Shown: positions 16,806-36,716 of the stretch, piece after piece
Layout of the letters: each line of letters opens with the position of its first letter
Position numbering within the stretch: position 1 is the stretch's first letter
Assembly: GCF_027213965.1 (NCBI RefSeq)
Contig: NZ_JAPWGX010000004.1
Span: 310,001-374,000, forward strand
Length of the DNA: 64,000 bases
Reading direction: 5' to 3'
From: Maritalea porphyrae
GTDB lineage: Bacteria > Pseudomonadota > Alphaproteobacteria > Rhizobiales > Devosiaceae
The notes under the pieces: generated by a model
Seen by the model: the letters and a program-made list of their open reading frames with translations, nothing else
What the model was told of the DNA's origin: nothing
The model's database searches: none
Program-made: the position numbers and the translations under genes

Positions 16806-18746
16806 CTAAGTCGATCTGTTTTGGCGGTTCTCGATCAGCTTTTCGACCACTGAAGGGTCAGCAAGCGTGGAGATGTCGCCTAAGTTGGAGAATTCGTCCT
16901 CGGCAATCTTACGTAAGATGCGTCGCATGATTTTGCCCGAACGGGTTTTGGGCAGGTCCGGTGCAAATTGGAGCAAATCCGGTGTTGCAATCGGCCCAAT
17001 TTCCTTGCGCACCCACGCGCGCAGTTCTTTATAAAGCTCGTCGCTCGGCTCATTGCCTGCCATAAGGGTGACATAGACATAAATGCCTTGGCCCTTGATG
17101 TCATGGGGATAGCCAACCACAGCGGCTTCTGACACTTTGTCGTGTGCCACCAATGCGCTTTCCACTTCAGCGGTGCCCATGCGGTGGCCAGACACGTTCA
17201 ACACGTCATCGACGCGTCCAGTGATCCAGTAAGCGCCATCTTCGTCGCGTTTGCAGCCGTCGGAGGTGAAATATTTCCCCTTATAGGTGGTGAAATAGGT
17301 GTCCACGAACCGTTGATGATCGCCATAGATGGTGCGCGCTTGTGCGGGCCAACTATCCAAAATGCACAAATTGCCTTCGGCTGCGCCTTCAAGCACATTG
17401 CCTTCATTGTCAACAAGTTGAGGTTTGATGCCAAAGAAAGGCGCTGTGGCGGCCCCAGGCTTAAGCGCATGCGCGCCGGGCAGTGGGGTCAACATGCAAC
17501 CACCGGTTTCTGTTTGCCACCATGTATCAACAATCGGGCAACGGGCTTCGCCCACAACGTGGTAGTACCATTCCCATGCTTCTGGGTTGATCGGTTCTCC
17601 AGCCGTGCCCAAAAGCTTGAGCGAAGAGCGGCTGGTTTTGGTGACAAATTCATCACCTGCGCCCATCAATGCGCGAATGGCAGTTGGGGCGGTGTAGAAC
17701 TGATTGACCTGATATTTGTCGATGATTTGCCAGAAACGCGAAGCATCTGGGAAGTTTGGTACACCTTCAAACATCACCGATGTGGCACCATTTGAAAGCG
17801 GTGCGTATAGGGTGAAACTGTGCCCAGTGATCCAGCCCAAATCAGCGCCGCACCAGAAGATATCGCCTTCTTCATAGTTGAAGACGGCGCGGTGAGCGAA
17901 GTTGATATAAGTGAGGTAACCGCCAGATGTGTGGACCACGCCTTTTGGTTGCCCGGTTGAACCAGACGTATAAAGGATGAACAAAGGATCTTCTGCGTTC
18001 ATAGGTTCGCATTCGCAGAACTCATCAACCCCAGCTGCTGCTTCATGCCACCAGACGTCGCGCCCACCCTTCATGGTGATGTTTGCGCCAGTGTGCTCAA
18101 CCACCAATACTTTTTCGACACCCAAAGCGTGCGGCATGGCGTCGTCGACATTTTTCTTTAGTGGAACGGTTTTGCCACCACGGCGTCCTTCGTCGGCGGT
18201 GATCACAACGGTACTGTCGCAATCATTGATCCGGCCCGCAAGCGCTTCAGGCGAGAAGCCCGCAAAAACGACAGAGTGAGCAGCCCCAATGCGCGCGCAA
18301 GCAAGCATGGCATAGGTGATTTCTGGGATCATGGGCAGATAGATGGTGACCCGGTCGCCCTTTTTGACGCCCAAAGATTTGAGCACATTTGAAAACCGAG
18401 AAACCCGCTCGTGCAGCTGGTTATAGGTGATTGTTTGCCCGGGTTGATCTGGATGATCTGGCTCCCAATGGAACGCCACGCGATCACCATTTTCTTCCAA
18501 ATGTCGGTCGATACAATTGTAGGCAACGTTCAGCACACCATCTTCGAACCATTTGACCGACACAGGGTCGAAACTGGTGTTTTTGATGATGGTTGGCTCT
18601 TTGATCCAATCCAAGCGTTTTGCTTGTTCTGCCCAAAATCCATCGGGATCTTTGACAGACCGATGATACATCTCTTGATATGTGTCCGCGTCAATTAGCG
18701 CGTTGGTTGCCCAATCTGAAGGGACTGGATAGATTTTCCCGGACAT
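16806..18746 (-). CDS. acsA: Acetyl-CoA synthetase (AMP-forming)
   Basis: Enzyme of 646 residues, the usual length for Acs, that activates acetate to acetyl-CoA through acetyl-AMP. Visible motifs are [14 protein letters not shown] (AMP-binding P-loop), [18 protein letters not shown] and the C-terminal [11 protein letters not shown] whose Lys is the site of regulatory acetylation in homologues. ATG 18746 with AGGAG upstream gives the standard N terminus; an upstream extension to 18860 is not coding. It is the last gene of a minus-strand series after the ABC transporter genes, and the divergent regulators across 24.2 kb probably control it. Confidence 0.95.
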
Positions 18747-18873
18747 AGCTCTCCTCTTGTCCGCCAACAGCAATGACAGCCGGCGAACCCTTTTTGAAAC
18801 CTTCAATGTTAATTGGCCGGTCCCTACCGTGCCCGGTCTCTTGGAGGCTTGCGCCCCCAATCTTTGCTATGAA

Positions 18874-19638
18874 CTAAATCGCGAGATACTCGTGACGAAG
18901 TTCTTCGTTATCCAAGACCTCTTGTGCGGTGCCGGTAAAGGCCACCTCACCAGTATCAAGAATAACCGCCCTATCGGCGAGACGAAGCGCGGCAACCGCG
19001 TTTTGCTCAACGATAATGGTCGTGATCCCAAGAAGCTTGATTTCTTGCAGGATCTTTTCAATCTCTTGCACAATCACTGGTGCCAAACCTTCATAGGGTT
19101 CGTCCAATAGCAAGAGTTTGACATCCCGTACCAATGCACGGCCAATGGCCAGCATTTGCTGTTCGCCACCAGAAAGGGTCACGCCTTCTTGGTTGCGGCG
19201 TTCAGCGAGGCGTGGGAAACGCTCGTAAACTTGTTCGATGGCCCAGCCGTGTCCCGGCGCCACTTGGGCAAGGGTCATGTTTTCTTCAACGGTTAGGCCT
19301 TGGATGATGCGCCGATCTTCTGGCACCAGTTGTAGCCCGGCAAGGGCTGCTTCGTGCGAACGCATTTGGTGCAATGGTTGACCATCCAGCCAGATTTCAC
19401 CCTGCTTTAGCTGCGGGTCATCTGTGCGGGCGAACGAACGTAATGTTGATGTTTTGCCCGCACCGTTTCGCCCCAGCAGTGCCATGATTTCGCCCTTGGG
19501 CAAATCCATTGATACACCTTGCACGATATAGCTTTCGCCATAATAGGCGTGAACATTTTTAACCTGGAAAAATGGGCGTTCTGTGCTTGCGGCGCTTGCG
19601 CTATTTGTAATGTCAGTTTCAGTGTTCATGGCGTTCAT
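18874..19638 (-). CDS. LIV-type ABC transporter ATP-binding protein (LivF-like)
   Basis: ATPase of 254 residues of the branched-chain amino acid type. Walker A is GRNGAGKTST, the signature is LSGGEQQMLAIGRALV and Walker B is LLLLDEPYEGLAP, which is diagnostic of LivF. An unusual N-terminal tail of about 20 Ser/Thr/Ala-rich residues precedes the domain. The start codon overlaps the stop of the LivG-like gene by one base. It forms the second ATPase of the transporter whose permeases and binding protein follow upstream. Confidence 0.92.
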   Translation of the reverse strand: MNAMNTETDITNSASAASTERPFFQVKNVHAYYGESYIVQGVSMDLPKGEIMALLGRNGAGKTSTLRSFARTDDPQLKQGEIWLDGQPLHQMRSHEAALAGLQLVPEDRRIIQGLTVEENMTLAQVAPGHGWAIEQVYERFPRLAERRNQEGVTLSGGEQQMLAIGRALVRDVKLLLLDEPYEGLAPVIVQEIEKILQEIKLLGITTIIVEQNAVAALRLADRAVILDTGEVAFTGTAQEVLDNEELRHEYLAI

Positions 19639-20408
19639 TAGTGAGCTCCCCCAAGATATGCTTCTTGCACTTTCGGGTTGTTGCGCACCTCCTCCGGTGT
19701 TCCCTCGGCGATAATGCGGCCACCCGCCAGAACCGAGATTTTGTCAGCCAGTGAAAACACAACATGCATGTCGTGCTCGATAATGACTTTGGTCATCCCA
19801 CGTTCTTTGATCTTCTTCAGCAAGTCAATTGTGGTATTTGTATCGTGTCGTGACATGCCAGCTGTTGGCTCATCCAACAAGAGCAAACGCGGGTGCTGGA
19901 TAAGGCACATGGCCAGCTCCATGCGACGTTTGTCCCCGCGTGACAATGAGCCTGCTAGCATGTCTTTGCTTGCAGTCATGCCCACATCTTCAAGCATATG
20001 CTCGGCTTCTTCACGGATTTCAGTTTCATCGTCAATTGACTTGAAGAAATTGAGCGTAAAGGAGCCATCGCGCCGTGCAAAGGCGGGGGCCATCACATTT
20101 TGGATCACTGTAAGGTCTGGAAAGATCTCGGGTGTTTGGAACACACGTGCCACACCGACTTGGTTGATCTCATGTGGTTGCTTACCCGTCAAAACTTGCC
20201 CGTCAAATACCACCGCGCCGCGGGTTGGGGCCAAACGGCCCACCACCACATTGAGAAGTGTTGATTTTCCGGCACCGTTTGGGCCAATGATGGCGTGGGT
20301 TTTGCCTTCTTCGATTTGCAAATCGATATCGCTTAGGGCGTGCAGTCCACCAAAGGTCTTGTGCACATCAGCGACGTGAAGAACAATATTGTCTTTTTCT
20401 GTCGTCAT
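19638..20408 (-). CDS. LIV-type ABC transporter ATP-binding protein (LivG-like)
   Basis: ATPase of 256 residues. Walker A is GPNGAGKSTLLN, the signature LSRGDKRRMELAMCL replaces the usual SGGQ with SRGDK, as in urea/amide-type LIV ATPases, and Walker B is LLLLDEPTAGMSRHDT. The C terminus ends in EVRNNPKVQEAYLGG, typical of LivG. It couples ATP hydrolysis to the permease pair encoded just upstream. Confidence 0.92.
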   Translation of the reverse strand: MTTEKDNIVLHVADVHKTFGGLHALSDIDLQIEEGKTHAIIGPNGAGKSTLLNVVVGRLAPTRGAVVFDGQVLTGKQPHEINQVGVARVFQTPEIFPDLTVIQNVMAPAFARRDGSFTLNFFKSIDDETEIREEAEHMLEDVGMTASKDMLAGSLSRGDKRRMELAMCLIQHPRLLLLDEPTAGMSRHDTNTTIDLLKKIKERGMTKVIIEHDMHVVFSLADKISVLAGGRIIAEGTPEEVRNNPKVQEAYLGGAH

Positions 20409-20428
20409 TTCAAATGTCCTTTCAAGAC

Positions 20429-21592
20429 CTATTCAGCGGGTGCTGGGGCTGGTGCTGGTTCATCGGGTTTTGCCTTGTCGCCGCCATCGCGGTTAAACAG
20501 GGAACCAATGCGCCTAAAGCCTTCCATCATGCCGCCGGGCAAGAAGGTCACGACAAGCACGAAGATCAAGCCAAGTGTTAAGTGCCAGCCTTCACCCACA
20601 AACATTGAGGTGACGCTAACCACAAAGCTTTCCACGTTGTCTGGCAAGAAGCTGAACAGATTGTGCAACACGCTTTCGTTGAACGAGGAAAAAATGTTCT
20701 CGAAATATTTGATCAACCAAGCGCCAACCACGGGGCCAATGAGCGTGCCAACACCACCAAGAATGGTCATTAGTACGATTTCGCCCGATGCGGTCCATTG
20801 CATACGCTCAGCGCCTGCAAGGGGATCCGTTACAGCCATCAGACCGCCAGCAAGACCGGCAAACATGCCAGAGATCACAAATGCTGTCAGGGTATAGGGA
20901 CGGGTGTTAAAGCCCGTATAGTTCATGCGGGTTTGGTTGGACTTGATCGCACGTAACATCATGCCAAATGGTGAAGCGAAGATGCGTTGAGTGATAAAGA
21001 AGCCGATGATCAAGAAGACCGCACAGAAGTAAAAGCCCGAGATGCCGCTCATATCCACAAGGCCAAACAGATTGGACACGGGCAGAGAGCCGTCGTTGAC
21101 GCCACCAAATGCGCTGTCGACAATTCTTGGATCATCTAGGGTCAGCTGCAAACCTGTTTCACCGTTGGTGATTGGCGTTAGCACTGAGTAGGCTAGATTG
21201 TATGACATTTGCGCAAATGCAAGGGTCAAGATTGAAAAGTAAATGCCAGAGCGCCGCAAGCTTACAAATCCAATGGCCAAGGCGAATATGCCTGAAATGA
21301 CCACCGCAAGGATAAGAGCGGGGATTGGGTTCATTGAAAACAGCTTAAACGTCCAAACTGCAGTATATGAACCCACACCAAGAAATGCGGCATGGCCAAA
21401 GCTGAGGTAGCCGGTTAGGCCAAACAGGACATTGAAGCCAATGGCGAGAATGCCAAAGATCGCAAACTTTTGCATCAAATCAGGATATGCGGCACCAAAT
21501 GGCTGAAGCCAAATCGGCATCAACAGGACTACTGCAGCAAACAATACAAAGGTAATGACGTCTTTGCGTGACATTGAGAATAGGGCGTTCAT
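20429..21592 (-). CDS. LIV-type ABC transporter permease (LivM-like)
   Basis: Inner-membrane permease of 387 residues with about ten helices. The family segment [20 protein letters not shown] lies near residue 60 and [14 protein letters not shown] near residue 285. The C terminus carries a Pro/Ala-rich cytoplasmic tail. It forms the translocation pore with the LivH-like permease that starts four bases before it in the same series. Confidence 0.92.
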
Positions 21593-21596
21593 GTTC

Positions 21597-22628
21597 TTAA
21601 CTCTCCATCACGCCACGGCGACCCAGAAGACCACGTGGACGAACCAATAGAATAATCACGGCGACCAGATAGATAATGATTTGGTCGATACCTGGAATGA
21701 TGGCTTTGATTTCCGTCATCGAGGCGAGAGATTGGAGTATGCCAAGCAGGAAGCCTGCGGCAACGGCGCCGGGCAATGAACCCATTCCGCCAACAACCAC
21801 CACCACAAAGCTAAGGACCAAGAAGTCCATGCCAAGGTGATAATCAGGCGGAAGCAACGGCGTGTACATGACACCGGCCATACCTGCGACCACGGCTGCT
21901 AAACCAAACATGGCGGTAAAGCGCTTGTCGATGTCGATGCCAATCAAACCAACAGTTTCTCTGTCAGCCATACCGGCGCGCACCACCATGCCAAAAGTTG
22001 TGAATTGAAGGAAGGCAAACACAGCGCCAATAACAACAACTGAGAATGCGAAATAGATGAGACGCCACCAAGGATAAACAATGACGTTCGGATCCATGCC
22101 CATTGCTGCACCAATATCTGCGGCGCCACCAACGACAGAAGGCATCGGCTGCGGAATTGGGTTCGCGCCGAAGTAGTGTTTGATGATTTCTTGCAAAACG
22201 ATCGCTAGTCCGAAAGTTACAAGGATTTGTTCCGCGTGAGGACGACGATAGAAGTGCTTGATCAGACCGCGCTCCATGACGATGCCGATGACCAGCATGA
22301 CGGGGATCGCGAGCAATATCGAAAATGGAACCGAATAGTCCACCATGAATGAACCAAAATCGCCGAACCATGCTTCAACATAGGGTGTGCGAATTTCAAG
22401 CGGTGTGCCCCAAGCCGTGACCTTTTCGGGGTCGGTTGCAATCATTTCCAGTGTCAAAATTTTGCGCACTGTGACGGCACAAAAAGCACCAAGCATAAAC
22501 AATGCACCGTGGGCAAAGTTAACAACGCCCAATGTGCCAAAAACAAGGGTAAGCCCCAAAGCGATCAACGCGTATGCGCCGCCTTTATCCAGTCCGTTCA
22601 AAAACTGTAGAAAAATCGCGTCCATCAT
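21597..22628 (-). CDS. LIV-type ABC transporter permease (LivH-like)
   Basis: Inner-membrane permease of 343 residues with eight to ten helices. The N-terminal [20 protein letters not shown] and [15 protein letters not shown] segments and the [21 protein letters not shown] motif are characteristic of LivH. ATG 22628 is preferred because GGGAGGA immediately precedes it; another ATG follows at 22625. A strong intergenic hairpin separates it from the binding-protein gene. Confidence 0.92.
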
Positions 22629-22690
22629 TCCTCCCAAGCAGCATAGTTGGCTGCAAATGCTTGCGGTTATAGCTCTTTAGAACCGCCGAT

Positions 22691-22714
22691 GCCGGGGTGG
22701 TGAACCACCCCGGC
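22691..22714 (-). other. Intercistronic hairpin between binding protein and permease genes
   Basis: Perfect ten-pair stem (GCCGGGGTGG and its complement) with a four-base loop, 14 bases after the binding-protein stop. No T-run follows, so it is probably not a full terminator. Such structures often protect the upstream binding-protein mRNA and give it higher expression than the permeases. Confidence 0.65.
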
Positions 22715-22728
22715 ACCAAAGTTTAAAC

Positions 22729-24075
22729 TCAACTAACTTCGTATGGGCCTAGATCGCCGCCGAAGATCGCAGGATCATATTCCACTTGTGCCCGTGGAGT
22801 TTGTTGAACCACATTGAGCAAATCGAATTGAGAAGTTGGGTTTTCGTTACCACGCACAACCAATACGTCTTTAAAGCACTGGTGATCTGCTGCACGGTAG
22901 TGTGTAGGACCATTGCCCATTCCATCAAAATCCCAGCCCTCAAGAGCTTTAATGACTTCTGGTGGATAGAATGTGCCTGCACGCTCGCACGCGTCGGCGT
23001 AAAGCAAGGTTTGCACGTAACAAGTATGTGCAGCCATTGATGGTGGGAAGCCGTACTTGGCGCCGAATGATTTCACAAAAGCTTGTGAACCAGCGTCTTG
23101 TAGTGACCAGTTCCAGTTTGCTGAACCCAAAATGCCTTTAATGTTTTCGCCAGCACCCTGCGCCATAAGGCGAGAGAACAATGGCACAACAATTTGGAAG
23201 TCTTTGCCGTTGACTTGCTTGTCACGTAGACCAAACTGAATTGCTTGGGTTAGTGAGTTCACCATGTCGCGACCATAGTGGTTCAAAATCAGAACGTCAG
23301 CGCCTGAATTGAGAACCGGTGTGATGTACTGAGAAAAATCGCCTGCGCCCACTGGTGTTTTAACCGTTTCTGCAGTTTGCCAACCCAATGCTTCAGTAGC
23401 ATTGCGCATGGATTCTTCTTGCGTCCAACCCCAAGTATAGTCAGCTGTGAGGTGATATGCGCGACGGTCTGTACCATATTCTTGACCAAGCACTGGACCA
23501 AGTGCTGCACCAGACATGTAGGCGTTAAAGAAGTGCCTAAAGCCATAGCGTCGCTTGTCTTTACCCGTTGTATCGTTGGAGTGGGTCAAGCCAGCCATAA
23601 AGATGGTGCCCATTTCTTGGCACAAACCCTGCACAGCAACAGCCACACCTGAAGATGAACCACCAGAAATCATCAGTGCGCCGTCTTTTTCAATCATCCG
23701 TTTAGCGGATGCGCGGGCTGCGTCAGATTTGGTTTGTGTATCGCCGGTAACGTAGGCAACTTTCTTGCCTAGTACGCCATTGCCGCCCAAAGATTTGGGT
23801 TGCATTGTGTTGAGCATCCCGCCGTCGCCTTCACCATTAAGGTGTTCAACAGCAAGTTGGAATGCGCGAAGCTCATCAGCACCCTCATCGGCGTAAGAGC
23901 CGGTTTGTGGCACGTTAAAACCAAGAGTTACCGTGTCGCCCATAGGCTTGTTGCGGTATTCTTGGCCAAAAGCAGAGCTTGTCAAAATTGTTGGCGCAAC
24001 ACCTGCGGTCACAAGACCAGCTGCGGCACCTTTGAGAACCTTACGACGGCTAGGGCCATCTTTACGTTCGCTCAT
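22729..24075 (-). CDS. ABC transporter substrate-binding protein, Tat-exported
   Basis: Periplasmic binding protein of type 1 fold, 448 residues. The N terminus has a Tat-like signal SRRKVLKGAAAGLVTAG followed by a cleavage region ending near SAFGQ. The mature domain starts with TVTLGFNVPQTGSYADEG, as in LIV-type receptors, and includes TADYTWGWTQEES. Export in folded form by Tat is unusual for this fold but common in this subfamily. ATG 24075 has AAGGAGG upstream. The ligand is unknown; being encoded with acs suggests a compound that yields acetate or acetyl-CoA, but this is inference. Confidence 0.9.
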   Translation of the reverse strand: MSERKDGPSRRKVLKGAAAGLVTAGVAPTILTSSAFGQEYRNKPMGDTVTLGFNVPQTGSYADEGADELRAFQLAVEHLNGEGDGGMLNTMQPKSLGGNGVLGKKVAYVTGDTQTKSDAARASAKRMIEKDGALMISGGSSSGVAVAVQGLCQEMGTIFMAGLTHSNDTTGKDKRRYGFRHFFNAYMSGAALGPVLGQEYGTDRRAYHLTADYTWGWTQEESMRNATEALGWQTAETVKTPVGAGDFSQYITPVLNSGADVLILNHYGRDMVNSLTQAIQFGLRDKQVNGKDFQIVVPLFSRLMAQGAGENIKGILGSANWNWSLQDAGSQAFVKSFGAKYGFPPSMAAHTCYVQTLLYADACERAGTFYPPEVIKALEGWDFDGMGNGPTHYRAADHQCFKDVLVVRGNENPTSQFDLLNVVQQTPRAQVEYDPAIFGGDLGPYEVS

Positions 24076-24222
24076 AAATTCTCCTCCTTTTTGGGTGATG
24101 GGCGTCGAATGCACTGACGCTACACATCGCGAGAATAATAGTGTATAAATGAAAACTTAAGCAATAGTACGTTGTAATATAACGATAATTTTGTCAAAAA
24201 CGCGACAGTTTCTTGTAACTTA

Positions 24223-24240
24223 TTGTAAAATATTTTACAA
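24223..24240. promoter_or_regulatory. Palindromic operator candidate for the ScfR regulator
   Basis: TTGTAAAATATTTTACAA is a perfect 18-base palindrome 36 bases before the ScfR-type gene start. A further TTGTAA half-site lies at 24213-24218, ten bases before the first arm. Its position in the divergent interval between the regulator and the ABC/acs genes suits autoregulation and control of both sides. The word TTTTACAA recurs in the pccR-pccB interval. Confidence 0.6.
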
Positions 24241-24276: not shown

Positions 24277-25914
24277 ATGCGCTCGCCTATAGGGTTGAAA
24301 ATCCGCAACCTGAGGAAATCACTTGATTTCTCACAATCTGGGTTTGCGAAGATGGTTGGCATTTCGCCGTCCTATCTAAACCTAATTGAGGCCAATAAGC
24401 GCGATGTCGGTGGCATCTTGTTGCAACGAATTGCGGAAAACTTGAACGTCGAGTTGGATTTGTTAACAGGCGACAGTGAACAGCGATTGATCAATGATCT
24501 AGAGGAAGTGTTTGCGGACCCGCTGCTCGAATCGTTAAATTTGGGACCTGACGACGCACGCAACGTGGTGGCAACAAACCCAGATGCAGGGGCCGCACTT
24601 TTTAGGATTTATCGTGGATTTTTGGACGCGCGCGCTGAAGCAAAAGCCATGTCCAATCGCTTGCGGTCTGACCCTTTGTTCTCTGAATTATTGCATCAGA
24701 TGCTCTCCCAAATCACAGCGGTTAGGTCCGCAGCAGAAATCTTGGCGGATGTGCCCGACCTAGAAAGCGATCAGCGCAAACGGTTCCATGTCTCTTTGTC
24801 GCGAGACAGCCGCACGCTATCCGATGTTGCTCAAACCCTTATTGGCGAATTTGATCGCGAAACGGTGGCGCATCATTCGGTCTCGCCCATGCGAGAAGTT
24901 GACGATTTGATTATCGATGAGAAAAACCATTTTGGCGGACTGGAGGAACTAGGTCGTGAACTTCGGGGTGAGGTGCTTGCTTTTGGTGGTTTTGGGGAGG
25001 CCAGTCTTGATCTGGCGCTACAGCACAAATTTGGTGTGACCGTTGAGCGCGCTGGGCAAGTGGAAGCCGGTGGCGAAGAAGCGCCGGGGCAGTACCGATA
25101 TATAGAAGACCAAAAGCGCATGTGGTTTCAGGGCAATTGTACCATGTCCACGCGCCAATTTCAGCTATCCCGGCTGTATGCGGAATTGTCTGGGGTCGAC
25201 ACGCTGAAGCAAATGGCTAAAGACAAACGGCTAACCTCATCAAACTCTCAACGGCTCGCTTATCGTGCTCTCGGGTCCTATTTGGCTGGCGCTATTAGTT
25301 TGCCGTATGACGATTTCTTAAAGGATGCTGAGGAGCACAAGTATGACATTGACTATCTTGCGCAAAAATACACAGCCAGTTTTGAACAGGTTGCGCATAG
25401 GCTGGTGACTTTGCGCGCGCCGGGGCGCGAAGGTATTCCTTTTGGTTTTTTGCGTTCCGACCCGGCGGGGCGGCTGACAAAGCAGTTTCCATTGCCCGGG
25501 CTCCAATTGCCAAACGCGGGTCATGCCTGTCCGCTTTGGGCAATCTATAGCGCGTTTCGGCGGCCAAATGACGTTGTCCGTCAGCTCGTTACTTATCCTG
25601 ACGGGTCTAGGTATTTGTTTTTTGCGAAATCAATGTCCAAACGGGCAGCGGCTTATTCTCAGGTGCCTTTTTACACGTCTGTCATGCTTGCCTGTGACAT
25701 TTTTTATGCGGATAGGACGGTTTACGGGGAGGGTATGCGGTTGGATGATGGACAATTGGATGTGCCGGTCGGCCCAACATGTCACATGTGTATTCGGCGT
25801 GATTGTGAGCATCGGCAAGAAGAAGTTTTGGCCAGCGTTGATGCGATGCACTCGGTGCGTATGCCGCTTGTAAACACAAAGTTCAGTGTTGGCGAGACGG
25901 ATAAAAGTGCATAA
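24277..25914 (+). CDS. ScfR-type (RamB/PccR-like) regulator with inserted HisKA-like segment
   Basis: Transcriptional regulator of 545 residues. It starts with an XRE helix-turn-helix (about 7-62; LRKSLDFSQSGFAKMVGISPSYLNLIEANKR), has the IrrE-like middle region and ends with the DUF2083 domain including GHACPLWAIYSAF and the Cys-rich GPTCHMCIRRDCEHR. These are the features of short-chain fatty acyl-CoA regulators. It is about 75 residues longer than the paralogue at 32.4 kb because of an insertion at about 132-196 that resembles a histidine-kinase dimerisation domain, with H140 in HQMLSQITAVRSAAEIL. It is divergent from the ABC/acs genes and followed by two-component genes, suggesting control of acetate activation. 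Confidence 0.87.
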   Translation: MRSPIGLKIRNLRKSLDFSQSGFAKMVGISPSYLNLIEANKRDVGGILLQRIAENLNVELDLLTGDSEQRLINDLEEVFADPLLESLNLGPDDARNVVATNPDAGAALFRIYRGFLDARAEAKAMSNRLRSDPLFSELLHQMLSQITAVRSAAEILADVPDLESDQRKRFHVSLSRDSRTLSDVAQTLIGEFDRETVAHHSVSPMREVDDLIIDEKNHFGGLEELGRELRGEVLAFGGFGEASLDLALQHKFGVTVERAGQVEAGGEEAPGQYRYIEDQKRMWFQGNCTMSTRQFQLSRLYAELSGVDTLKQMAKDKRLTSSNSQRLAYRALGSYLAGAISLPYDDFLKDAEEHKYDIDYLAQKYTASFEQVAHRLVTLRAPGREGIPFGFLRSDPAGRLTKQFPLPGLQLPNAGHACPLWAIYSAFRRPNDVVRQLVTYPDGSRYLFFAKSMSKRAAAYSQVPFYTSVMLACDIFYADRTVYGEGMRLDDGQLDVPVGPTCHMCIRRDCEHRQEEVLASVDAMHSVRMPLVNTKFSVGETDKSA

Positions 25915-25971
25915 GGTGTGGCGGTTGGTATCGGCAAGAGGGGCCGGTCTCAGCACGCGGGAGGAATATAC

Positions 25972-26349
25972 GTGTCTGTAGACGTTTTGATTGTCGAGGA
26001 TGAGCCAAGCATCCTTGATTCGCTGGATTTTATTCTCAAACGGGCGGGCTGGAACATCAGCGCGGTAACAGATGGGGATGCCGCTATTGCGGCGGTTGGT
26101 GAGTTGCGCCCAAAAGTTGTGGTGCTCGATGTTATGCTGCCCAAGAAGTCTGGGTTTGAAGTGCTTAAACATTTGCGCGGGCAACCCGGTACAAAGGATT
26201 TGCCCATATTGATGTTGACGGCGAAAGGGCAACAGCAAGATCGCCGGATTGCAGAAGAATTGGGTGCAAATGGGTTTGTCACCAAGCCCTATTCAAACAA
26301 TGAAGTGGTGGAAGCGGTGCGCCAGCTGATGGAGCAAGCAGCCGCTTGA
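25972..26349 (+). CDS. Receiver-only response regulator
   Basis: Response regulator of 125 residues made of a single receiver domain: acidic pocket E9-D10, phosphoacceptor D53 in VVVLDVMLPKKSG, T83 in MLTAKG and K105 in VTKPYS. There is no output domain. GTG 25972 is chosen because GGGAGGA precedes it by about six bases. It lies between the ScfR-type gene and the symporter-kinase gene, so it is the natural phosphate acceptor of that kinase and must act through a protein partner. In CrbSR systems of gammaproteobacteria the regulator carries a DNA-binding domain, unlike here. Confidence 0.9.
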   Translation: MSVDVLIVEDEPSILDSLDFILKRAGWNISAVTDGDAAIAAVGELRPKVVVLDVMLPKKSGFEVLKHLRGQPGTKDLPILMLTAKGQQQDRRIAEELGANGFVTKPYSNNEVVEAVRQLMEQAAA

Positions 26350-26356
26350 GTGCGTA

Positions 26357-26605
26357 ATGGCCGGTCGTAAACGTAGTGAAGGATTTGCGTTTTTTCTCCC
26401 CGTCGTTGGGGCGATGTTGGTTATGCCGCCTATTGTTATGCTGTTTGATGTGGACGTTAGTGTCTTTGGTTTTCCACTGATCGTTGCCTACATGTTTTTT
26501 GTTTGGCTGTTTTTGGTGGTCGCTTCTTGTGTTCTGACACGCGGGTTGCCACGCGCGGAAACTGAAGTGAAAAAAGCTGACACACATGCGGAAACTAAGC
26601 CATGA
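26357..26605 (+). CDS. Small two-helix membrane protein
   Basis: Protein of 82 residues with two hydrophobic helices (about 10-30 and 36-60) and a charged C-terminal tail. It begins seven bases after the response regulator stop and its stop overlaps the kinase start (ATGA). Symporters of the SSS family are often encoded with a small helical partner (for example YjcH with ActP), so it may be an accessory subunit of the fused symporter domain. I cannot name its family. Confidence 0.75.
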   Translation: MAGRKRSEGFAFFLPVVGAMLVMPPIVMLFDVDVSVFGFPLIVAYMFFVWLFLVVASCVLTRGLPRAETEVKKADTHAETKP

Positions 26606-29325
26606 TTTCCGCCAATCTTGTCATCCTTATTGCGGTCGGTTATGTGGTGCTGCTGTTCGCACTCGCCTATTTTTCCGAACGTTGGGCAGAGGGTGACCGG
26701 GGCCATTTTTTGCGTTCGCCATTGGTTTATACGCTGGCTATTTCTGTTTATTGCACCAGCTGGACGTTTTATGGAGCTGTTGGGTCGGCCGCGAGAAGTG
26801 GACTTGAGTTTTTCGCCATTTACTTAGGACCGACCTTAGTTTTTGTGGGGTGGTGGTTTGGTTTGCGCAAATTGGTGCGCATCGGCCGCAATCAGCGCAT
26901 TACCTCAGTTGCTGATTTGATTTCATCGCGCTTTGGCAAAAGCAACCGGTTGGCGGTTTTGGTGACATTGATCGCGGTCATTGGCACAACGCCCTACATT
27001 GCTTTGCAGCTTAAAGCGATCACCACTAGCTTGTCGGTGATCTCGTCCGACAGTATTTTGGCGGGTGTGGGAGATCGCACAGACGACAACCGCCTGGCGC
27101 TTGGTGTTGCTGCTGGAATGGCGCTTTTTACCATCCTATTTGGAACACGGAATGTGGATGCCAAGGAACAACACCATGGCGTTGTGGCCGCCATTGCGTT
27201 TGAAGCGATCGTAAAACTGGTGGCACTGATGGCCGTTGGCATTTTTGTTGTATTTGGAATTGGTGGCGGATTTTCGGAAATCTTTTCGCGGGCGGAAAGC
27301 GTTGGGGTCAATGTTTATGACAACGGTGGGTTTGGAACCCGCTGGGTGACAATTTTGGTGCTTTCTGCTGCAGCCATCATATGTTTGCCACGACAGTTTC
27401 AGATCACAGTTGTCGAAAATTCTGACGAAAACCATTTGCGCACTGCCAGCTGGCTTTTCCCCCTATATTTGTTGGGCATGAGCGTGTTCACCTTGCCTAT
27501 TGCCATCGTGGGGTTGAACTTGCTTCCTGCTGGGACAGACCCTGATATGTTTGTGCTGACCCTTCCGCTGGCCCATGACCAAGAGTTGCTTGCCCTTTTT
27601 GCCTTTATTGGAGGGTTTTCGTCCGCCACATCAATGATCATTATCGCTTCCATCGCGCTTTCTATAATGGTCAGCAACCACATTGTTATGCCTATTGCGC
27701 TTAGAACGCCATGGATCGCTGATTCAGGCGATGGACAGGGGGTGACGAACTTGCTGCTCAATAGTCGGCGCGTTTCAATCTGCGCTGTGTTGGCACTTGG
27801 GTTTTTATATTTTTGGCTCACAAATGGGTCCGGTGCGCTGGCTCGGATCGGCCTAATTTCGTTTTCAGGCGTAGCTCAGTTCTTACCATCAATTATTGCA
27901 GCTCTTTATTGGCGCGATGCGACGTCAAAAGGCGCTGGCGTGGGACTGTTCGTCGGCTTTGCTGTTTGGGCCTATACTTTGTTTTTGCCGAGTTTTGTTG
28001 AAACGGGTGGCATAGTTGCCCAGTGGGTGGAAAATGGTCCCTATGGCATCAGTTTCTTGCGGCCTGAGGCCTTGTTTGGGCTTGAAGGTATTGATCCGCT
28101 TGTGCATTCGGTTTTTTGGAGCTTATTGGCCAACGCGGGACTTTTGGTGTTGGTTTCGCTTTCCACCAGCCAGTCCGCACTCGAACGCATTCAGAGCACT
28201 TTGTTTGTGGACGCGTTCCGGCGGTTGCCCGGTACTGAAACCCGGTTTATGCGCTCCTCAGCGGCCGCGAATGATTTGTTTTTTGTGGCACAACGTGTGC
28301 TAGGTGCTGAGCGCGCAACAGCCATATTTGATGACTATTTGAAACGAGAGGTTGGCAGTCGCGCGCAGTTTGAGCCAACGCCAGATTTCATAGCGCATTT
28401 GGAAAAAGAGCTTGCGGGCTCCATCGGGGCTGCATCGGCCCACGTTATGCTGTCGCAGGTTGTTTCAGGAGACAATATATCGCTGCAAGAGGTGATGCAG
28501 ATCGCTGATGAAACTCAGCAAGTGATCGAATATTCGCAACAGCTTGAACAAAAATCCGAGGAATTGAAACAGACCGCTGAAAAGCTGCAGGATGCCAATG
28601 AAAAACTGCGTGAGCTTGATCAGGAAAAGGATGATTTTCTAAGTCAGGTCAGCCACGAAGTGCGCACGCCCATGACATCAATCCGCTCATTCTCTGAGAT
28701 TTTGCTTGATCCTGAAGGCGTGACCAGTGAGCAACGGGCCCGGTTTTTGTCGACCATTCACACAGAGAGTTTGCGCCTTACCCTATTGCTCGATGAGATT
28801 TTGGACCTTAGCGCTTTGGAGCGCGGAGAAAAAACATGGGTAAATGAGCCTGTAGATGTCACTAAGGTGCTGCAGCGCGCTGCTTTAGTTTGCGACCCAT
28901 TGGCGAAATCGTCCGGCATCAAAATGCGATCTTTAGCAATTGCTGATGCGCCTTTTGCTGATGCAAATGGTGACCGGCTCTGCCAAGTGTTTATCAACCT
29001 AATTTCAAACGCCATCAAATATAATGACAGCCAAAATCCTTATGTGGAATTGAGTATGAAACGGGTGGGGAAACGGCTACAAATTGAGTTTCAGGACAAT
29101 GGGCCAGGCATTGCCCTGAAAGATCGTAAGCGCGTATTCAACAAGTTTTCGCGGGGTCATCGCGGTGTGTCCAATGCGCAAACCGGGTCTGGGTTGGGTT
29201 TGGCCATTAGTTCGCAAATCGTTGGCCATATGAACGGTAAATTGGATTTGGTGCGCGGCAACGGTGAGGGCGCGTGTTTTAGGGTCACCCTCAATCTCGT
29301 ACCGTCACCTGAAATCAGCGATTAG
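26602..29325 (+). CDS. Solute symporter/sensor histidine kinase fusion (CrbS-like)
   Basis: Membrane sensor of 907 residues. Residues about 1-500 form a sodium:solute symporter domain of about 13 helices. A linker and coiled coil (about 630-680, rich in Glu/Lys/Gln) connect to the HisKA domain with the phosphorylated H685 in SHEVRTPMTSIRS, and to the ATPase domain with NLISNAIKYN, DNGPGI and GSGLGLAIS. No PAS or receiver domain is seen. In Vibrio and Pseudomonas, CrbS of this design controls acs; the nearby acs gene supports a similar role. Whether the symporter half transports or only senses solute is unknown. Confidence 0.9.
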   Translation: MISANLVILIAVGYVVLLFALAYFSERWAEGDRGHFLRSPLVYTLAISVYCTSWTFYGAVGSAARSGLEFFAIYLGPTLVFVGWWFGLRKLVRIGRNQRITSVADLISSRFGKSNRLAVLVTLIAVIGTTPYIALQLKAITTSLSVISSDSILAGVGDRTDDNRLALGVAAGMALFTILFGTRNVDAKEQHHGVVAAIAFEAIVKLVALMAVGIFVVFGIGGGFSEIFSRAESVGVNVYDNGGFGTRWVTILVLSAAAIICLPRQFQITVVENSDENHLRTASWLFPLYLLGMSVFTLPIAIVGLNLLPAGTDPDMFVLTLPLAHDQELLALFAFIGGFSSATSMIIIASIALSIMVSNHIVMPIALRTPWIADSGDGQGVTNLLLNSRRVSICAVLALGFLYFWLTNGSGALARIGLISFSGVAQFLPSIIAALYWRDATSKGAGVGLFVGFAVWAYTLFLPSFVETGGIVAQWVENGPYGISFLRPEALFGLEGIDPLVHSVFWSLLANAGLLVLVSLSTSQSALERIQSTLFVDAFRRLPGTETRFMRSSAAANDLFFVAQRVLGAERATAIFDDYLKREVGSRAQFEPTPDFIAHLEKELAGSIGAASAHVMLSQVVSGDNISLQEVMQIADETQQVIEYSQQLEQKSEELKQTAEKLQDANEKLRELDQEKDDFLSQVSHEVRTPMTSIRSFSEILLDPEGVTSEQRARFLSTIHTESLRLTLLLDEILDLSALERGEKTWVNEPVDVTKVLQRAALVCDPLAKSSGIKMRSLAIADAPFADANGDRLCQVFINLISNAIKYNDSQNPYVELSMKRVGKRLQIEFQDNGPGIALKDRKRVFNKFSRGHRGVSNAQTGSGLGLAISSQIVGHMNGKLDLVRGNGEGACFRVTLNLVPSPEISD

Positions 29326-32006: not shown

Positions 32007-32435
32007 ATGACGAAGTTTAATCAAAGATTTGTCCGCGCATTTTGCATCTATGACTTTATGGGGCTAGGGCTTTTTGCGCTGCCGATTGTCAGTAGTCAGC
32101 AAGTGGTTACTTACAGCTATGCCAATCAAATGTTGGGCGGCATGCCCCTAAGCGTTGAAGACCCATTTGCCCAACTCAGCCTGTGCTTGCTTGGGTTGTT
32201 GGTAATTGCGTGGGGAATATGGCGGTGGATGGATGCCTCGCCACAAATTGCATTTTTCGAAGGCTGTTTGCGGTTTGTCTATGGCCCGGCCATGCTCTGG
32301 TTCGGCATTCAATTTGATATGCCCATATTTGCTCTTGCTGGAATTGCTGACCTAGCGATTGGGCTTGGTCATATGTGGAGCGCAAAGCGCGCTGGTTTCT
32401 CGTTTGGCAGGGCGTTCGTTCAAACAATCTCATAA
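32007..32435 (+). CDS. Uncharacterised membrane protein (142 residues)
   Basis: Integral membrane protein with about four hydrophobic helices (about 12-30, 50-70, 80-95, 100-125) and a short basic C terminus. I do not recognise the family. Its last 16 bases overlap the convergent pccR-like gene. Confidence 0.68.
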   Translation: MTKFNQRFVRAFCIYDFMGLGLFALPIVSSQQVVTYSYANQMLGGMPLSVEDPFAQLSLCLLGLLVIAWGIWRWMDASPQIAFFEGCLRFVYGPAMLWFGIQFDMPIFALAGIADLAIGLGHMWSAKRAGFSFGRAFVQTIS

Positions 32436-33835
32436 GGCACAACGTTTCGCTCATCTGGCGAGATAGAAATCTCTGCGGCGATGGGGGGAACGGAGCGTTG
32501 GGAGCAGTTGCGGCGTTCGCAGATGCGGCAGGAAATACCGATGGGATCGAATGCAGCGGTGTCAGAAATGTCCAAGTCTTCTGAATAAATCAGTTTATGT
32601 GCATGGGTGATTTCACACCCCAAGGCATAGGCATAGCGACGCGTTGGTTGGCGATATCCACCGGCGCGTTTTTCGTTGATCCAAGCAAGGCACAAATATC
32701 GGTTGCCGTCGGGCGTTTCAGCGCGTTGGCGGATAATTTCTGTTGGGAATTCAAAGGCGCGGTGCACGTTCCACAAGGGGCACGCGCCGCCAAAGCGGGC
32801 GAACTGCAAAGCGGTTGCGGAGTGGCGTTTGGTGATGGTGCCTGCTTGGTCAACCCGCGCGAAGAAGAACGGTATGCCGCGGTGTTGGGGGCGTTGCAAT
32901 GTCGATAGGCGATGCGCCACTTGCTCTAAGCTCGCGCCAAAACGGTTTGCCAACACCTCAATATCGTAACGTACGATCTCGGCTTCTTTGAGAAAGGCGG
33001 TATAGGGCATCAGCAATGCGCCAGCGAAATAATTGCCCAACCCGATGCGGCAGATGGCGCGTGCTTCTGGGCGTTTAAAGTTCGCTTTCTCCAAAATATC
33101 GTTGACCAGGCTCGCTTGTTCCAGCAGGGCCAATTGGTTGGCCAGTTGAAAGAACTGCGTGGGTTTTTCAAGGGAGGCATTAATACGGATAATCCGTCTG
33201 GTGCGGTCGAACTGACGGATCATGTCGCGCTTGTTGGGCAGTACAAACTCTACGTTGAGTTCATGCACTTCCGTGCAATAGGCCACAAGTCGCTCAAGCT
33301 TTTGGTGGTGGTTCAGGGAGGCTTCTTTGGACAATTCTTCGGCAGCGCGGTCCAAGTCATCCACATAATTGTCGGCATAATGAAAGAAGTCACGCACCTC
33401 TTCATAAGAGGTTTGCAAATTGCCCGATTGTTCACGCATCAAAACGTCATCCACACCTGCCATGCGCTCGTTTGATTTTTTATAGGCTTCATAAAGTCGT
33501 AAGAAGGCATGTGCCGCATCTGGTGTGTTGGTGGCGAGGTTTTTCAACTCCTGCAAACCCGGTGGAGCATCGGCAAATATTGGGTCGGCGAAGATTTCTT
33601 TGAGATCAACAATCAAGCGATCTGATTTGTCAGCGAGTAGGGTGGTGACGTCCACATTGAAGGTTTCGGCCAGCCCAAGCATGATCGAAGCGGTAACCGG
33701 GCGTTGGTTATTCTCGAGCTGGTTCACATAGCTTGTGGAGATATCCAAGCGATTGGCAAACTCGGCTTGGGTAAGCTTGTTGGTTTCGCGCAATGCCCGA
33801 AGCTTGATGCCTGCAAAGATTTTGCGTTGTGCCAT
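32420..33835 (-). CDS. pccR: Short-chain fatty acyl-CoA regulator (PccR-like)
   Basis: Regulator of 471 residues with an XRE helix-turn-helix (about 8-60; NKLTQAEFANRLDISTSYVNQLENNQR), an IrrE-like middle region (NVEFVLPNKRDMIRQFD, LANQLALLEQ) and a DUF2083 end with GGACPLWNVHRAFEFP and GISCRICERRNCSQR. It is divergent from pccB, the same arrangement as pccR in Rhodobacter sphaeroides, where the protein senses propionyl-CoA status and controls propionyl-CoA carboxylase. It lacks the HisKA-like insertion of the acs-side paralogue. ATG 33835 has AAGGA upstream. Confidence 0.85.
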   Translation of the reverse strand: MAQRKIFAGIKLRALRETNKLTQAEFANRLDISTSYVNQLENNQRPVTASIMLGLAETFNVDVTTLLADKSDRLIVDLKEIFADPIFADAPPGLQELKNLATNTPDAAHAFLRLYEAYKKSNERMAGVDDVLMREQSGNLQTSYEEVRDFFHYADNYVDDLDRAAEELSKEASLNHHQKLERLVAYCTEVHELNVEFVLPNKRDMIRQFDRTRRIIRINASLEKPTQFFQLANQLALLEQASLVNDILEKANFKRPEARAICRIGLGNYFAGALLMPYTAFLKEAEIVRYDIEVLANRFGASLEQVAHRLSTLQRPQHRGIPFFFARVDQAGTITKRHSATALQFARFGGACPLWNVHRAFEFPTEIIRQRAETPDGNRYLCLAWINEKRAGGYRQPTRRYAYALGCEITHAHKLIYSEDLDISDTAAFDPIGISCRICERRNCSQRSVPPIAAEISISPDERNVVPYEIV

Positions 33836-33970
33836 AGTTATTCCTTGTTGCCGCCACCGGTCGCTGCGCTCCAATCCCCGGCACCCCAGCCGGAGTGTCA
33901 GCCATTTGCTTTGGTCGGACCTAGACCCTCACGTAATTGGCAATGCGGCCTGGGAGGCAGATATGTACAG

Positions 33971-34009
33971 TTTCACAAATTACACAATTTTACAATTCAC
34001 AATGTGAAA
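33971..34009. promoter_or_regulatory. Operator candidate in the pccR-pccB interval
   Basis: An AT-rich island in a GC-richer interval is framed by TTTCACA (33971-33977) and TGTGAAA (34003-34009). Between them ACAAAT, ACAATT, ACAATT and ACAATG words recur every seven to nine bases. TTTTACAA at 33988-33995 also occurs in the operator candidate of the other ScfR gene. It is the likely binding site for the PccR-like protein. Confidence 0.55.
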
Positions 34010-34103
34010 GGAGTGTTCTTGTACACCTTTTCAGCCCTTCGCATGGAACGGGCGACACGCTAGGCTGTGCCCAACAAATCAAAATGAACACGCGGGGCAC
34101 CTC

Positions 34104-35636
34104 ATGCAGGAAATCATTGAGCAGCTAGAACACAAGCGCGGCGAAGCTCGTTTGGGCGGCGGTCAGCGCCGGATCGATACGCAGCATGGCAAGGGCAAGC
34201 TAACCGCACGTGAGCGTTTGGATGTGTTGCTCGATCCGGGCAGTTTTGAAGAATATGACATGTTTGTCACCCATCGCTGCACTGATTTTGGCATGGAAGA
34301 AAACATCATCCCCGGCGATGGGGTGGTGACCGGTTGGGGCACCATTAATGGCCGTTTGGTCTATGTGTTCTCACAAGATTTCACCGTTTTTGGCGGCTCG
34401 CTTTCTGAAACCCATGCGCAAAAGATTTGCAAAATTATGGACTTGGCCGTGCAAAACGGCGCGCCTGTGATCGGGCTGAACGATAGTGGCGGCGCGCGTA
34501 TTCAAGAAGGTGTTGCTTCGCTTGGCGGCTATGCGGATGTGTTCTTGCGCAACGTGATGGCGTCTGGCGCGGTGCCACAAATTTCAGTCATAATGGGCCC
34601 ATGTGCGGGCGGTGCCGTCTATTCACCTGCCATGACTGATTTCATCTATATGGTGAAAGACACAAGCTATATGTTTGTCACCGGTCCTGACGTGGTGAAA
34701 ACCGTTACCAACGAAACAGTGACCCAAGAAGAACTGGGCGGTGCTTCAACGCACTGTAAGATTTCTTCAGTAGCAGACGCGTCGTTTGAGAATGATGTTG
34801 AAACATTGCTCGAAGTGCGCCGCTTAGTGGACTACTTGCCCCTAAATGCAAATGAAAAGGCCCCGAAGGTTGACGTAAATGACGTCGTTAATCGCCCGGA
34901 TATGAGCCTTGATACCATCATCCCGGACAGCGCCAATAAGCCATATGATATGAAAGAGGTGATCTTAAAAATCGCAGACGAGGGTGACTTTTTGGAGCTC
35001 CAAGCCGAACATGCGGCAAACATATTGACCGGCTTTATTCGGCTAAACGGCCAAACCGTGGGGGTTGTGGCCAACCAGCCGATGGTGCTGGCCGGGTGTT
35101 TGGACATTAACTCATCCAAAAAAGCAGCGCGTTTCGTACGCTTTTGTGATGCGTTTAATATCCCCATTCTAACCCTGGTTGACGTGCCTGGCTTCCTCCC
35201 CGGGACAGCGCAGGAGTATGGTGGCATCATCAAGCATGGCGCCAAACTCCTGTTCGCCTATGCCGAAGCAACAGTGCCAAAAGTTACCGTGATTACCCGA
35301 AAAGCCTATGGCGGCGCCTATGACGTTATGGCCTCCAAGCACATCCGTGCGGACGTCAATTATGCGTGGCCAACGGCTGAAATCGCCGTGATGGGCGCAA
35401 AAGGCGCAACCGAAATTCTGTACCGCGCTGAATTGGGCGACGCCGACAAAATCGCCAAGCGCACAAAGGATTATGAAGACCGTTTCGCCAACCCATTTGT
35501 GGCAGCCGAGCGCGGCTTCATCGATGATGTGATTATGCCGCACAACACCCGCCGCCGCGTGGCGCGGGCGTTTGAAACGCTAAAGAACAAGCAACAGTCG
35601 ATGCCCAAGAAAAAGCACGACAATATTCCGTTGTAG
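34104..35636 (+). CDS. pccB: Propionyl-CoA carboxylase beta subunit
   Basis: Carboxyltransferase subunit of 510 residues that moves the carboxyl from biotin to propionyl-CoA, giving methylmalonyl-CoA. Motifs include the [20 protein letters not shown] terminus, [18 protein letters not shown] and [16 protein letters not shown] in the first half, and [20 protein letters not shown] and [10 protein letters not shown] in the second. Length is standard. It starts the propionyl-CoA pathway genes; pccA lies 1.1 kb downstream after two inserted genes and repeats. Confidence 0.95.
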
Positions 35637-35651
35637 GGAACAAAAGACCGT

Positions 35652-35689
35652 TTCCCTCCCCCTGGTGGGGAGGGACTAAGGGTGGGGGG
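35652..35689 (+). repeat. GC-rich palindromic repeat, copy A (left of DUF559 gene)
   Basis: Copy A has an eight-pair stem CCCTCCCC/GGGGAGGG around a five-base loop, followed by ACTAAGGGTGGGGGG. It runs up to the start codon of the DUF559 gene. Copy B on the other side is inverted and copy C lies alone at 58.28 kb. Confidence 0.85.
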
Positions 35690-36082
35690 ATGAGCAAGAA
35701 ACGCGCAAGAGAGTTGCGACAAAATGCAACCCCACCTGAAAAGGAAATGTGGAAAATGTTACGCACACTGCGCGCGGATGGTTTTCACTTTCGACGGCAA
35801 GTGCAGCTAGGGCCGTATTACGCAGACTTTGTCTGCCACTCGGCCAAGTTGGTGATTGAAATTGATGGCGACACGCATGGGTCGCCGGAGCAAATGGAAT
35901 TTGATCGGAAACGTGATCGGTTTTTGCAAAGGTACGGATACACAGTTTTGCGATTGACCAATGCTGAAGTGATGAAAAACATGGAAGGGGTATTTGATGT
36001 GGTTCAAAATGCGCTTGCGTCGTCCCCCCACCCCAACCCTCCCCACGATGGGGGAGGGAGCAGAATGAGGAACAACAAATGA
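35690..36082 (+). CDS. DUF559 domain protein (predicted endonuclease-like)
   Basis: Protein of 130 residues with the DUF559 fold, related to very-short-patch-repair endonucleases. Visible are RELRQNATPPEKEMWKMLR, FRRQVQLGPYYADFVC with the catalytic-type Asp, and LVIEIDGDTHG followed by DRKRDRFLQRYGYTVLRLTNAEV. The last about 20 residues (SPHPNPPHDGGG) are encoded by the flanking repeat rather than by the domain. It sits between pccB and ridA and its stop overlaps the ridA start (ATGA). The gene with its inverted repeats looks like an inserted cassette. Confidence 0.85.
   Translation: MSKKRARELRQNATPPEKEMWKMLRTLRADGFHFRRQVQLGPYYADFVCHSAKLVIEIDGDTHGSPEQMEFDRKRDRFLQRYGYTVLRLTNAEVMKNMEGVFDVVQNALASSPHPNPPHDGGGSRMRNNK
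36021..36060 (-). repeat. GC-rich palindromic repeat, copy B (right of DUF559 gene)
   Basis: Read on the minus strand, copy B is CTCCCTCCCC, a loop CATCGT, GGGGAGGG and then TTGGGGTGGGGGGACG. It is the inverted counterpart of copy A, and lies inside the 3' end of the DUF559 reading frame. Confidence 0.85.
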
Positions 36083-36477
36083 CTGATCCACTATTTCATA
36101 TGATTTCAGATGGTCCACGGCCGGTGGCGCCATTTTCTCATGCAACCGAAGCCAATGGTTGGATTTTTGTCACTGGGCAAATGCCGACTGACCCAAATGC
36201 ACCGGACGCGCCGTTGCCGGAGGGGATTGAAGCGCAAACTATCCGCGTGATGGAGAACCTCAAGATTGTTTTGGCGGGTATCGGTTTGGACCTGAGCCAC
36301 GTGATGATGGCGCGGTGTTATTTGACGGATTTTTATGGCGACTATGCGCAGTTCAACGAAACTTATCAGTCGTTTTTCCCAGCGGATCGTCGTCCCGCGC
36401 GCACGACAATTGGCGTGACGGGTTTGGCGCTTGAGGCGCTGGTGGAAATTGATTTTGTGTGTCGTCGGCCTGAGTAA
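36079..36477 (+). CDS. RidA family (YjgF/YER057c) protein
   Basis: Rid-superfamily protein of 132 residues. The archetype deaminates reactive enamine/imine intermediates released by PLP enzymes. The C-terminal motif ARTTIGVTGLALEALVEIDFVC contains the Arg and Glu expected at the active site; the N-terminal PFSHATEANGWIFVTGQMP is also typical. It may act on products unrelated to propionate; its placement within the pcc cluster may be due to insertion events. The start codon overlaps the DUF559 stop. Confidence 0.87.
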   Translation: MTDPLFHMISDGPRPVAPFSHATEANGWIFVTGQMPTDPNAPDAPLPEGIEAQTIRVMENLKIVLAGIGLDLSHVMMARCYLTDFYGDYAQFNETYQSFFPADRRPARTTIGVTGLALEALVEIDFVCRRPE

Positions 36478-36496
36478 ACCAAGTGGTTCCCTCCCT

Positions 36497-36525
36497 CGTC
36501 ATCCTCGGGCTTGACCCGAGGATCC
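36497..36525. repeat. REP-like palindrome, unit 1
   Basis: CCTCGGGCTTGACCCGAGG with seven-pair arms, preceded by CGTCAT. It is of a type common in intergenic regions of alphaproteobacteria. Unit 2 is its inverted partner. Confidence 0.8.
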
Positions 36526-36550
36526 ATCGGGAATGGTCAGCGCTACATGG

Positions 36551-36577
36551 GTTGTCGGGTCAAGCCCGACAATGACG
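36551..36577. repeat. REP-like palindrome, unit 2
   Basis: TTGTCGGGTCAAGCCCGACAA followed by TGACG. It is the inverted relative of unit 1, so units 1 and 2 form a BIME-like pair 25 bases apart. Confidence 0.8.
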
Positions 36578-36611
36578 AAGAAAAATGGACGTGCTTCTTT
36601 GCCCTCGGGGC

Positions 36612-36633
36612 ATTCCCGGACTTAATCCGGGAT
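36612..36633. repeat. REP-like palindrome, unit 3
   Basis: ATTCCCGGACTTAATCCGGG with six-pair arms around CTTAA. It belongs to a second subtype; unit 4 is its inverted partner. Confidence 0.75.
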
Positions 36634-36646
36634 CGAATTGAAATAG

Positions 36647-36667
36647 GTCCCGGATCAAGTCCGGGAC
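36647..36667. repeat. REP-like palindrome, unit 4
   Basis: GTCCCGGATCAAGTCCGGGA and the following C form a palindrome inverted relative to unit 3. The cluster of four units ends 49 bases before the pccA start. Confidence 0.75.
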
Positions 36668-36716
36668 AGCCTAAACATAAACTCTCGCATTGCGCGAACA
36701 AGGAATGGATGAGCAA

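Follow-up and report, generated by a model that had tools for sequence, protein, structure and literature searches.

In this study, we asked why a ScfR-type regulator of Maritalea porphyrae carries a segment that resembles the phosphoacceptor domain of a histidine kinase encoded three genes downstream on the same strand, and what part a response regulator without an output domain, encoded between the two, might play there. The window analyzed was a stretch of 64,000 nucleotides (positions 310,001 to 374,000 of contig NZ_JAPWGX010000004.1), and all coordinates below refer to it. The genes, frames and coordinates given by an earlier, sequence-only reading of this DNA proved correct. The regulator (24277..25914, + strand; 545 aa) shows Pfam matches to HTH_3 (residues 9-63), Peptidase_M78-like (329-376) and ScfRs (378-518), and its C-X2-C-X4-C motif (Cys502, Cys505 and Cys510; 25780..25806, +) is conserved in the alignment. 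The insert, a DHp (HisKA)-like helical hairpin, covers residues 126-198 (24652..24870, +) with helices at 133-158 and 164-198, and contains His140 (codon 24694..24696, +). The response regulator follows (25972..26349, +); it has 125 aa from this start, the longest open frame beginning at 25918, and Response_reg (E = 3e-27) is its sole domain, in accordance with the earlier claim that it lacks an output domain. Next come an 82-aa membrane protein (26357..26605, +) with a weak DUF3311 match, which is probably a small partner of the symporter-kinase and precedes the SLC5 kinase in many orthologous loci, and the SLC5 symporter-histidine kinase itself (26602..29325, +; CrbS/SLC5-STAC type), with HisKA at residues 676-742 and HATPase at 790-899. 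The HisKA/DHp domain with His685 lies at 28627..28827 (+).

An operon running from 24114 to 16806 is divergent to the regulator. It comprises liv-type ABC transporter genes (18874..24114, - strand; two ATPases, two permeases and a binding protein) and, as its last gene, an acetyl-CoA synthetase-type acyl-CoA ligase, acs (16806..18860, -; ACAS_N, AMP-binding and AMP-binding_C). This arrangement is common to most orthologous loci, and the genetic tie to an acs operon that had been proposed is supported. A PccR-like ScfR paralog without the insert is encoded at 32420-33874 (-), where it adjoins propionyl-CoA carboxylase and methylmalonyl-CoA mutase genes; the region 32420-40864, with this paralog beside pccB, pccA and the mutase, is a typical propionyl-CoA arrangement.

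The insert of about 70 residues, placed between the HTH and the CoA-sensing parts of the regulator, is a homolog of the HisKA/DHp domain of the partner kinase. As the sequence-only reading had noticed, the regulator and the kinase align gap-free with His140 opposite His685, and 17 identities were counted over 59 columns (H-8 to H+50, numbered from this His). BLASTP of the whole proteins returned a sole significant segment (17/51 identities, E = 9e-6), and hhalign of a profile of 48 inserts against the kinase covered kinase residues 676-736 with a probability of 97.9% (E = 3.4e-13); both comparisons uphold the proposed homology, for which the evidence is stronger than first claimed. When the inserts were scanned singly against Pfam, HisKA (PF00512) was matched by 39 of 48 (best 5e-11), and any other family by at most 3 of 48. 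Of seven orthologs scanned at full length, four (L095, L096, L098, and L101) had HisKA above the curated Pfam threshold, each in the order HTH_3, HisKA, Peptidase_M78, and ScfRs with all domains above Pfam cut-offs, and the H-box of L095 was nearly complete (STHELRTFLTSIRSFSEIL). The window's own insert, one of the more diverged copies, gave no Pfam HisKA match by itself, and its kinship with HisKA is visible by profile or pairwise comparison only. The absence of similarity to HisKA, named in the sequence-only reading as a refuting result, did not occur. Chance similarity between the insert and the kinase DHp was ruled out by the Pfam matches, BLASTP and hhalign. A profile search of the PDB with the insert retrieved HK853 (1e-5) and DivL (4q20, 8e-4) in addition to protein A helices. 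A PDB search with the insert as a single sequence also hit protein A helices, which were discarded as a repeat or composition artefact.

The segment is an insertion, as it is absent from both ScfR paralogs of the genome, namely the PccR-like protein in the window and a third ScfR. When the insert profile was compared with the 24 HisKA stretches of the Maritalea genome, the neighbouring kinase scored 60.7 bits and the next stretch 26.6 bits, a gap of 34 bits; together with the hhalign result, this makes the neighbouring kinase DHp the closest relative of the insert in the genome. Under the general HisKA model, three other kinases of the genome fit better than the neighbouring one. In the tree of DHp domains, the inserts formed one clade (support 99/94), which supports a single origin. 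Tree tests on 65 columns did not separate inserts nested in the DHp domains of SLC5 kinases from inserts sister to them (AU p = 0.48), and neither established nor rejected a single clade of the inserts and these domains (p = 0.285). Insert-bearing regulators are found in a minority of genomes, 33 of 397 in the order and 32 of 385 in the class, and a sample of 299 genomes drawn from across the phylum yielded none outside Alphaproteobacteria.

The receiver gene lies at most 3 kb from the regulator in 66 of 89 loci, usually in the order regulator, receiver, membrane protein, and kinase. Furthermore, all 22 genomes searched encode an SLC5 kinase (E no higher than 3e-206) and, beside it, a receiver-only regulator; 19 of these genomes had been picked for not having all the genes adjacent, so that kinase and receiver are kept even where they sit away from the insert regulator. 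This survey, which the sequence-only reading had called for, demonstrated that the insert co-occurs with receiver-only regulators and does not occur regularly without the kinase and receiver genes. An output domain was found in none of the 92 orthologous receivers, and the phospho-Asp and the Lys were invariant in all 92. Loci L175-L193, which belong to one order (f93), have the cluster of receiver, membrane protein and kinase on the far side of the ABC/acs operon, past acs, and each of their regulators has Phe at the His position. The converse association is not strict: plasmids of Paracoccus and Cupriavidus encode an SLC5 kinase and a lone receiver with no insert regulator nearby. In L195, L196, and L198, these plasmids carry a second receiver-only SLC5-kinase system, in which genes for a DUF294 nucleotidyltransferase-like protein and a PAS/DnaQ-type exonuclease protein accompany the SLC5 kinase and its lone receiver and a ScfR gene is missing from the vicinity.

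The residues kept and lost in the insert bear on what it may do. Frequencies were weighted, with about 32 effective insert sequences. Three residues that are invariant in the partner kinases are largely lost, since Pro at H+5 has disappeared (0%) and Glu at H+1 and Arg at H+3 are left in 18% and 15% of inserts. The window insert has Gln141 at H+1 and Gln145 at H+5, and the usual Glu and Pro after the His are therefore missing, as first noticed in the sequence-only reading. The H-E-x-x-T/N-P box of HisKA histidine kinases is broken, and Pfam detected no HATPase (CA) domain in the regulator protein. Other positions are highly conserved, including Ser at H+11 (96%), Glu at H+14 (97%), Ile at H+15 (100%) and Phe at H+30 (97%). 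In HisKA domains, Glu at H+1 is needed for kinase activity only and Thr or Asn at H+4 for phosphatase activity only (PMC3510030). The pattern of the insert, in which receiver-facing positions of alpha-1 are kept and the kinase-only residues lost, is reminiscent of DivL, whose DHp domain is a phospho-specific sensor of DivK, binds DivK~P with either Tyr or His at residue 550, and has neither kinase nor phosphatase activity (PMC4211667).

Based on these residues and on the DivL analogy, we propose, with a probability of roughly 0.6, that the insert is a catalytically dead, DivL-like pseudo-DHp domain that would serve as a docking port for the receiver of the kinase and feed into the control of the ABC/acs operon. 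The phosphoacceptor His is present in 82% of inserts by weight, which is more than pure docking needs and weakens this reading. It could instead point to a phosphorelay, in which His140 would be phosphorylated from the receiver, or directly from the kinase, and the phospho-His would switch the regulator, similar to Spo0B or ChpT-like DHp intermediates; the acidic residue after the His, kept in a minority of inserts (e.g., L095, L096, and L123), is consistent with such a route as well. However, the tree shows at least four changes of the His, to Phe, Tyr, Gln or Leu, in lineages that keep both kinase and receiver, and we consider a relay through His140 unlikely. The same replacements speak against a general role for the insert in phosphate exchange, which the sequence-only reading had offered beside docking, and such a role is further disfavored because the H+1 residue and the H-box Pro are also lost almost everywhere. 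A hint from the synteny table that the His was lost where the two-component genes were missing was rejected, as both kinase and receiver are encoded at other sites in the genomes concerned, and an independent-pairs test found no association between loss of the His and non-adjacency.

Position H+4 raises a different reading, in which the insert acts as a feedback phosphatase that dephosphorylates the receiver, so that the two-component system would be reset according to the CoA-thioester bound by the regulator. Thr, Ser or Asn occupies H+4 in 93% of inserts, and the phosphatase activity of HisKA requires Thr or Asn at this position and not Glu at H+1 (PMC3510030). Yet the residue in the window copy and in about 29% of inserts is Ser, whereas Thr and Asn are the residues characterised, Ala is found in L071 and L124 and Asp in L104, and DivL docks its receiver without phosphatase activity (PMC4211667); a phosphatase role therefore appears improbable to us. 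We hold equally doubtful a two-way logic gate, in which the CoA-loaded regulator would read the phospho-receiver through its DHp domain and also dephosphorylate it, resetting the system when acyl-CoA is sufficient.

The docking reading predicts a face for the receiver. Counted from His243, the phospho-His of EnvZ, insert positions H+7, H+8, H+11, H+12, H+14, and H+15 are the counterparts of EnvZ T250, R251, L254, A255, E257, and M258. These EnvZ residues determine receiver specificity (PMC2991266). Insert and own kinase agreed in 68% of cells at these alpha-1 specificity positions and in 35% over the domain, and the alpha-2 specificity positions were not kept (28% agreement). Docking on the alpha-1 face is weakened by the latter value and by a tie at the EnvZ-mapped specificity positions, where another kinase of the genome, L154, equals the neighbouring one (4/6 in alpha-1 and 5/10 overall). 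A seemingly better match over nine positions (7/9 with the neighbour) was abandoned, since the EnvZ helix-2 spacing misfits the longer loop and its correction led to the tie with L154. This kinase (G000:C22:372319-372510), presumably ChvG-like, shares the alpha-1 specificity residues of the insert to the same extent as the neighbouring kinase, and cross-talk between it and the insert system is possible. Similarity was mildly higher in matched than in mismatched insert-kinase pairs (p = 0.0004 for 43 representatives and 0.1 for 9), a signal that fades with stringent thinning and is only suggestive. That the kinase DHp is the closest relative of the insert, with identical spacing from the His to the second helix, would also agree with a hetero-bundle, in which pairing of the insert with the kinase DHp would hold the regulator at the membrane and the receiver would act elsewhere. 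However, identity between insert and kinase at helix-2 positions H+43 to H+48 is 1-7%, which speaks against a shared dimer interface and makes this arrangement very unlikely.

The AF2 model of the regulator, a monomer built from a 48-row alignment, folds the insert into a helical hairpin (pLDDT 88) with the His on helix 1. The best Foldseek neighbours of the hairpin were HK853-RR468 complexes, all with E > 0.01, as is usual for short helical hairpins. The rest of the regulator matched M. tuberculosis PrpR (Foldseek E = 4e-25), in which C-X2-C-X4-C has been described as a [4Fe-4S]/CoA signature and residues 81-154 are invisible and form a flexible linker (PMC6765138). With HTH, IrrE-like and ScfRs domains and this Cys motif, the regulator belongs to the ScfR/IsaR family of PrpR, RamB, and PccR (PMC6765138, PMC10370305), from which it differs by the insert that both in-genome paralogs lack; signature and fold predict that it binds acyl-CoA and a [4Fe-4S] cluster. 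The insert takes the position of the PrpR flexible linker, DHp domains dimerise, and the core hydrophobics of the hairpin are conserved, all of which would suit a dimerisation module that tetramerises or spaces HTH pairs and makes no receiver contact. Such a module would leave both the strict co-occurrence with receiver-only regulators and the conserved receiver-facing positions of alpha-1 unexplained, and we regard it as quite improbable.

Docking of the receiver is the reading that we favor. It is supported by the homology and single origin of the insert, its kept alpha-1 face and lost kinase residues, its co-occurrence with kinase and receiver, the dispensability of His140 and the precedent of DivL. 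Regarding the DNA target, a perfect palindrome, TTGTAAAATATTTTACAA (24223..24240), separates the regulator gene from the ABC/acs operon and is the only exact match in the window. The form TGTAAA-N4-TTTACA was counted 9 times in the 26 kb of DNA preceding the regulators and was absent from 1.52 Mb of other locus DNA, and the conserved word TTTACAAA occurred 75 times in the former and 28 times in the latter. This enrichment supports the view that the regulator acts at the divergent promoter, and the palindrome is likely its operator. The known RamB-type word TTTGCAAA was absent from the intergenic region, where the conserved word is TTTACAAA.

In the proposed mechanism, solute sensing at the membrane would alter the activity of the SLC5 kinase, and the kinase, judging from intact motifs, would phosphorylate the free receiver. 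The receiver, probably in its phosphorylated form, would then dock on the alpha-1 face of the hairpin as DivK~P does on the DivL DHp, between the HTH and the PrpR-like domain predicted to hold the [4Fe-4S] cluster and CoA-thioester. At its palindromic operator, the regulator might change in geometry or in oligomeric state upon docking, and the changed DNA binding would alter transcription of the divergent liv-type ABC/acs operon, on which membrane solute sensing and CoA-thioester sensing would converge.

The closest parallel is DivL-DivK of Caulobacter (PMC4211667), where a kinase-derived DHp domain without kinase function reads a receiver-only regulator, as predicted here, and the insert shares with it a dispensable His position while kinase and receiver stay. 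DivL, however, is a pseudokinase that has PAS and CA domains and targets CckA, whereas the present DHp domain is part of a DNA-binding CoA-sensor without a CA domain. CrbS/CrbR (PMC5436829, PMC9100948) similarly tie an SLC5-fused HisKA kinase to acetate/acs genes. In contrast, CrbS is a hybrid kinase and CrbR has a LuxR output, and in the system described here, with a 125-aa receiver lacking output, the DNA-binding role would fall to the ScfR protein. In Paracoccus denitrificans, Pden_1785 and Pden_2985 belong to the ScfR network and one of them lies beside a two-component system; Pden_1785 was left uncharacterised and set aside (PMC10370305). Paracoccus ferrooxidans encodes a 428-aa regulator with the insert (L197:5009-6292), a receiver, a membrane protein and an SLC5 kinase consecutively, and from this gene row Pden_1785 is probably the same system, differing by a reduced IrrE-like part and by acs not being adjacent. 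In the P. ferrooxidans regulator, most of the IrrE-like part is gone and the insert is still there, so the insert can persist when some of the CoA-sensing half is lost.

A HisKA/DHp domain in a ScfR or other XRE regulator was not found reported in the open-access literature; the docking principle is known from DivL, and the novelty lies in its placement within a transcription factor that senses metabolites. Response regulators that consist of a single domain are common, and their route to DNA is often obscure. A transcription factor that appears to have acquired a relative of its partner kinase's DHp domain would give the receiver an output without fusion of receiver and output domains, and would extend the DivL principle, in which a dead kinase core becomes a sensor of a phospho-receiver, to a DNA-binding protein. 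In addition, it would tie SLC5-type transceptor kinases to acyl-CoA sensing, and would offer a concrete partner for the uncharacterised Paracoccus ScfR gene that adjoins a two-component system. If the two-way gate were true, a single protein would merge the sensing of membrane solutes and of intracellular CoA-thioesters at acs.
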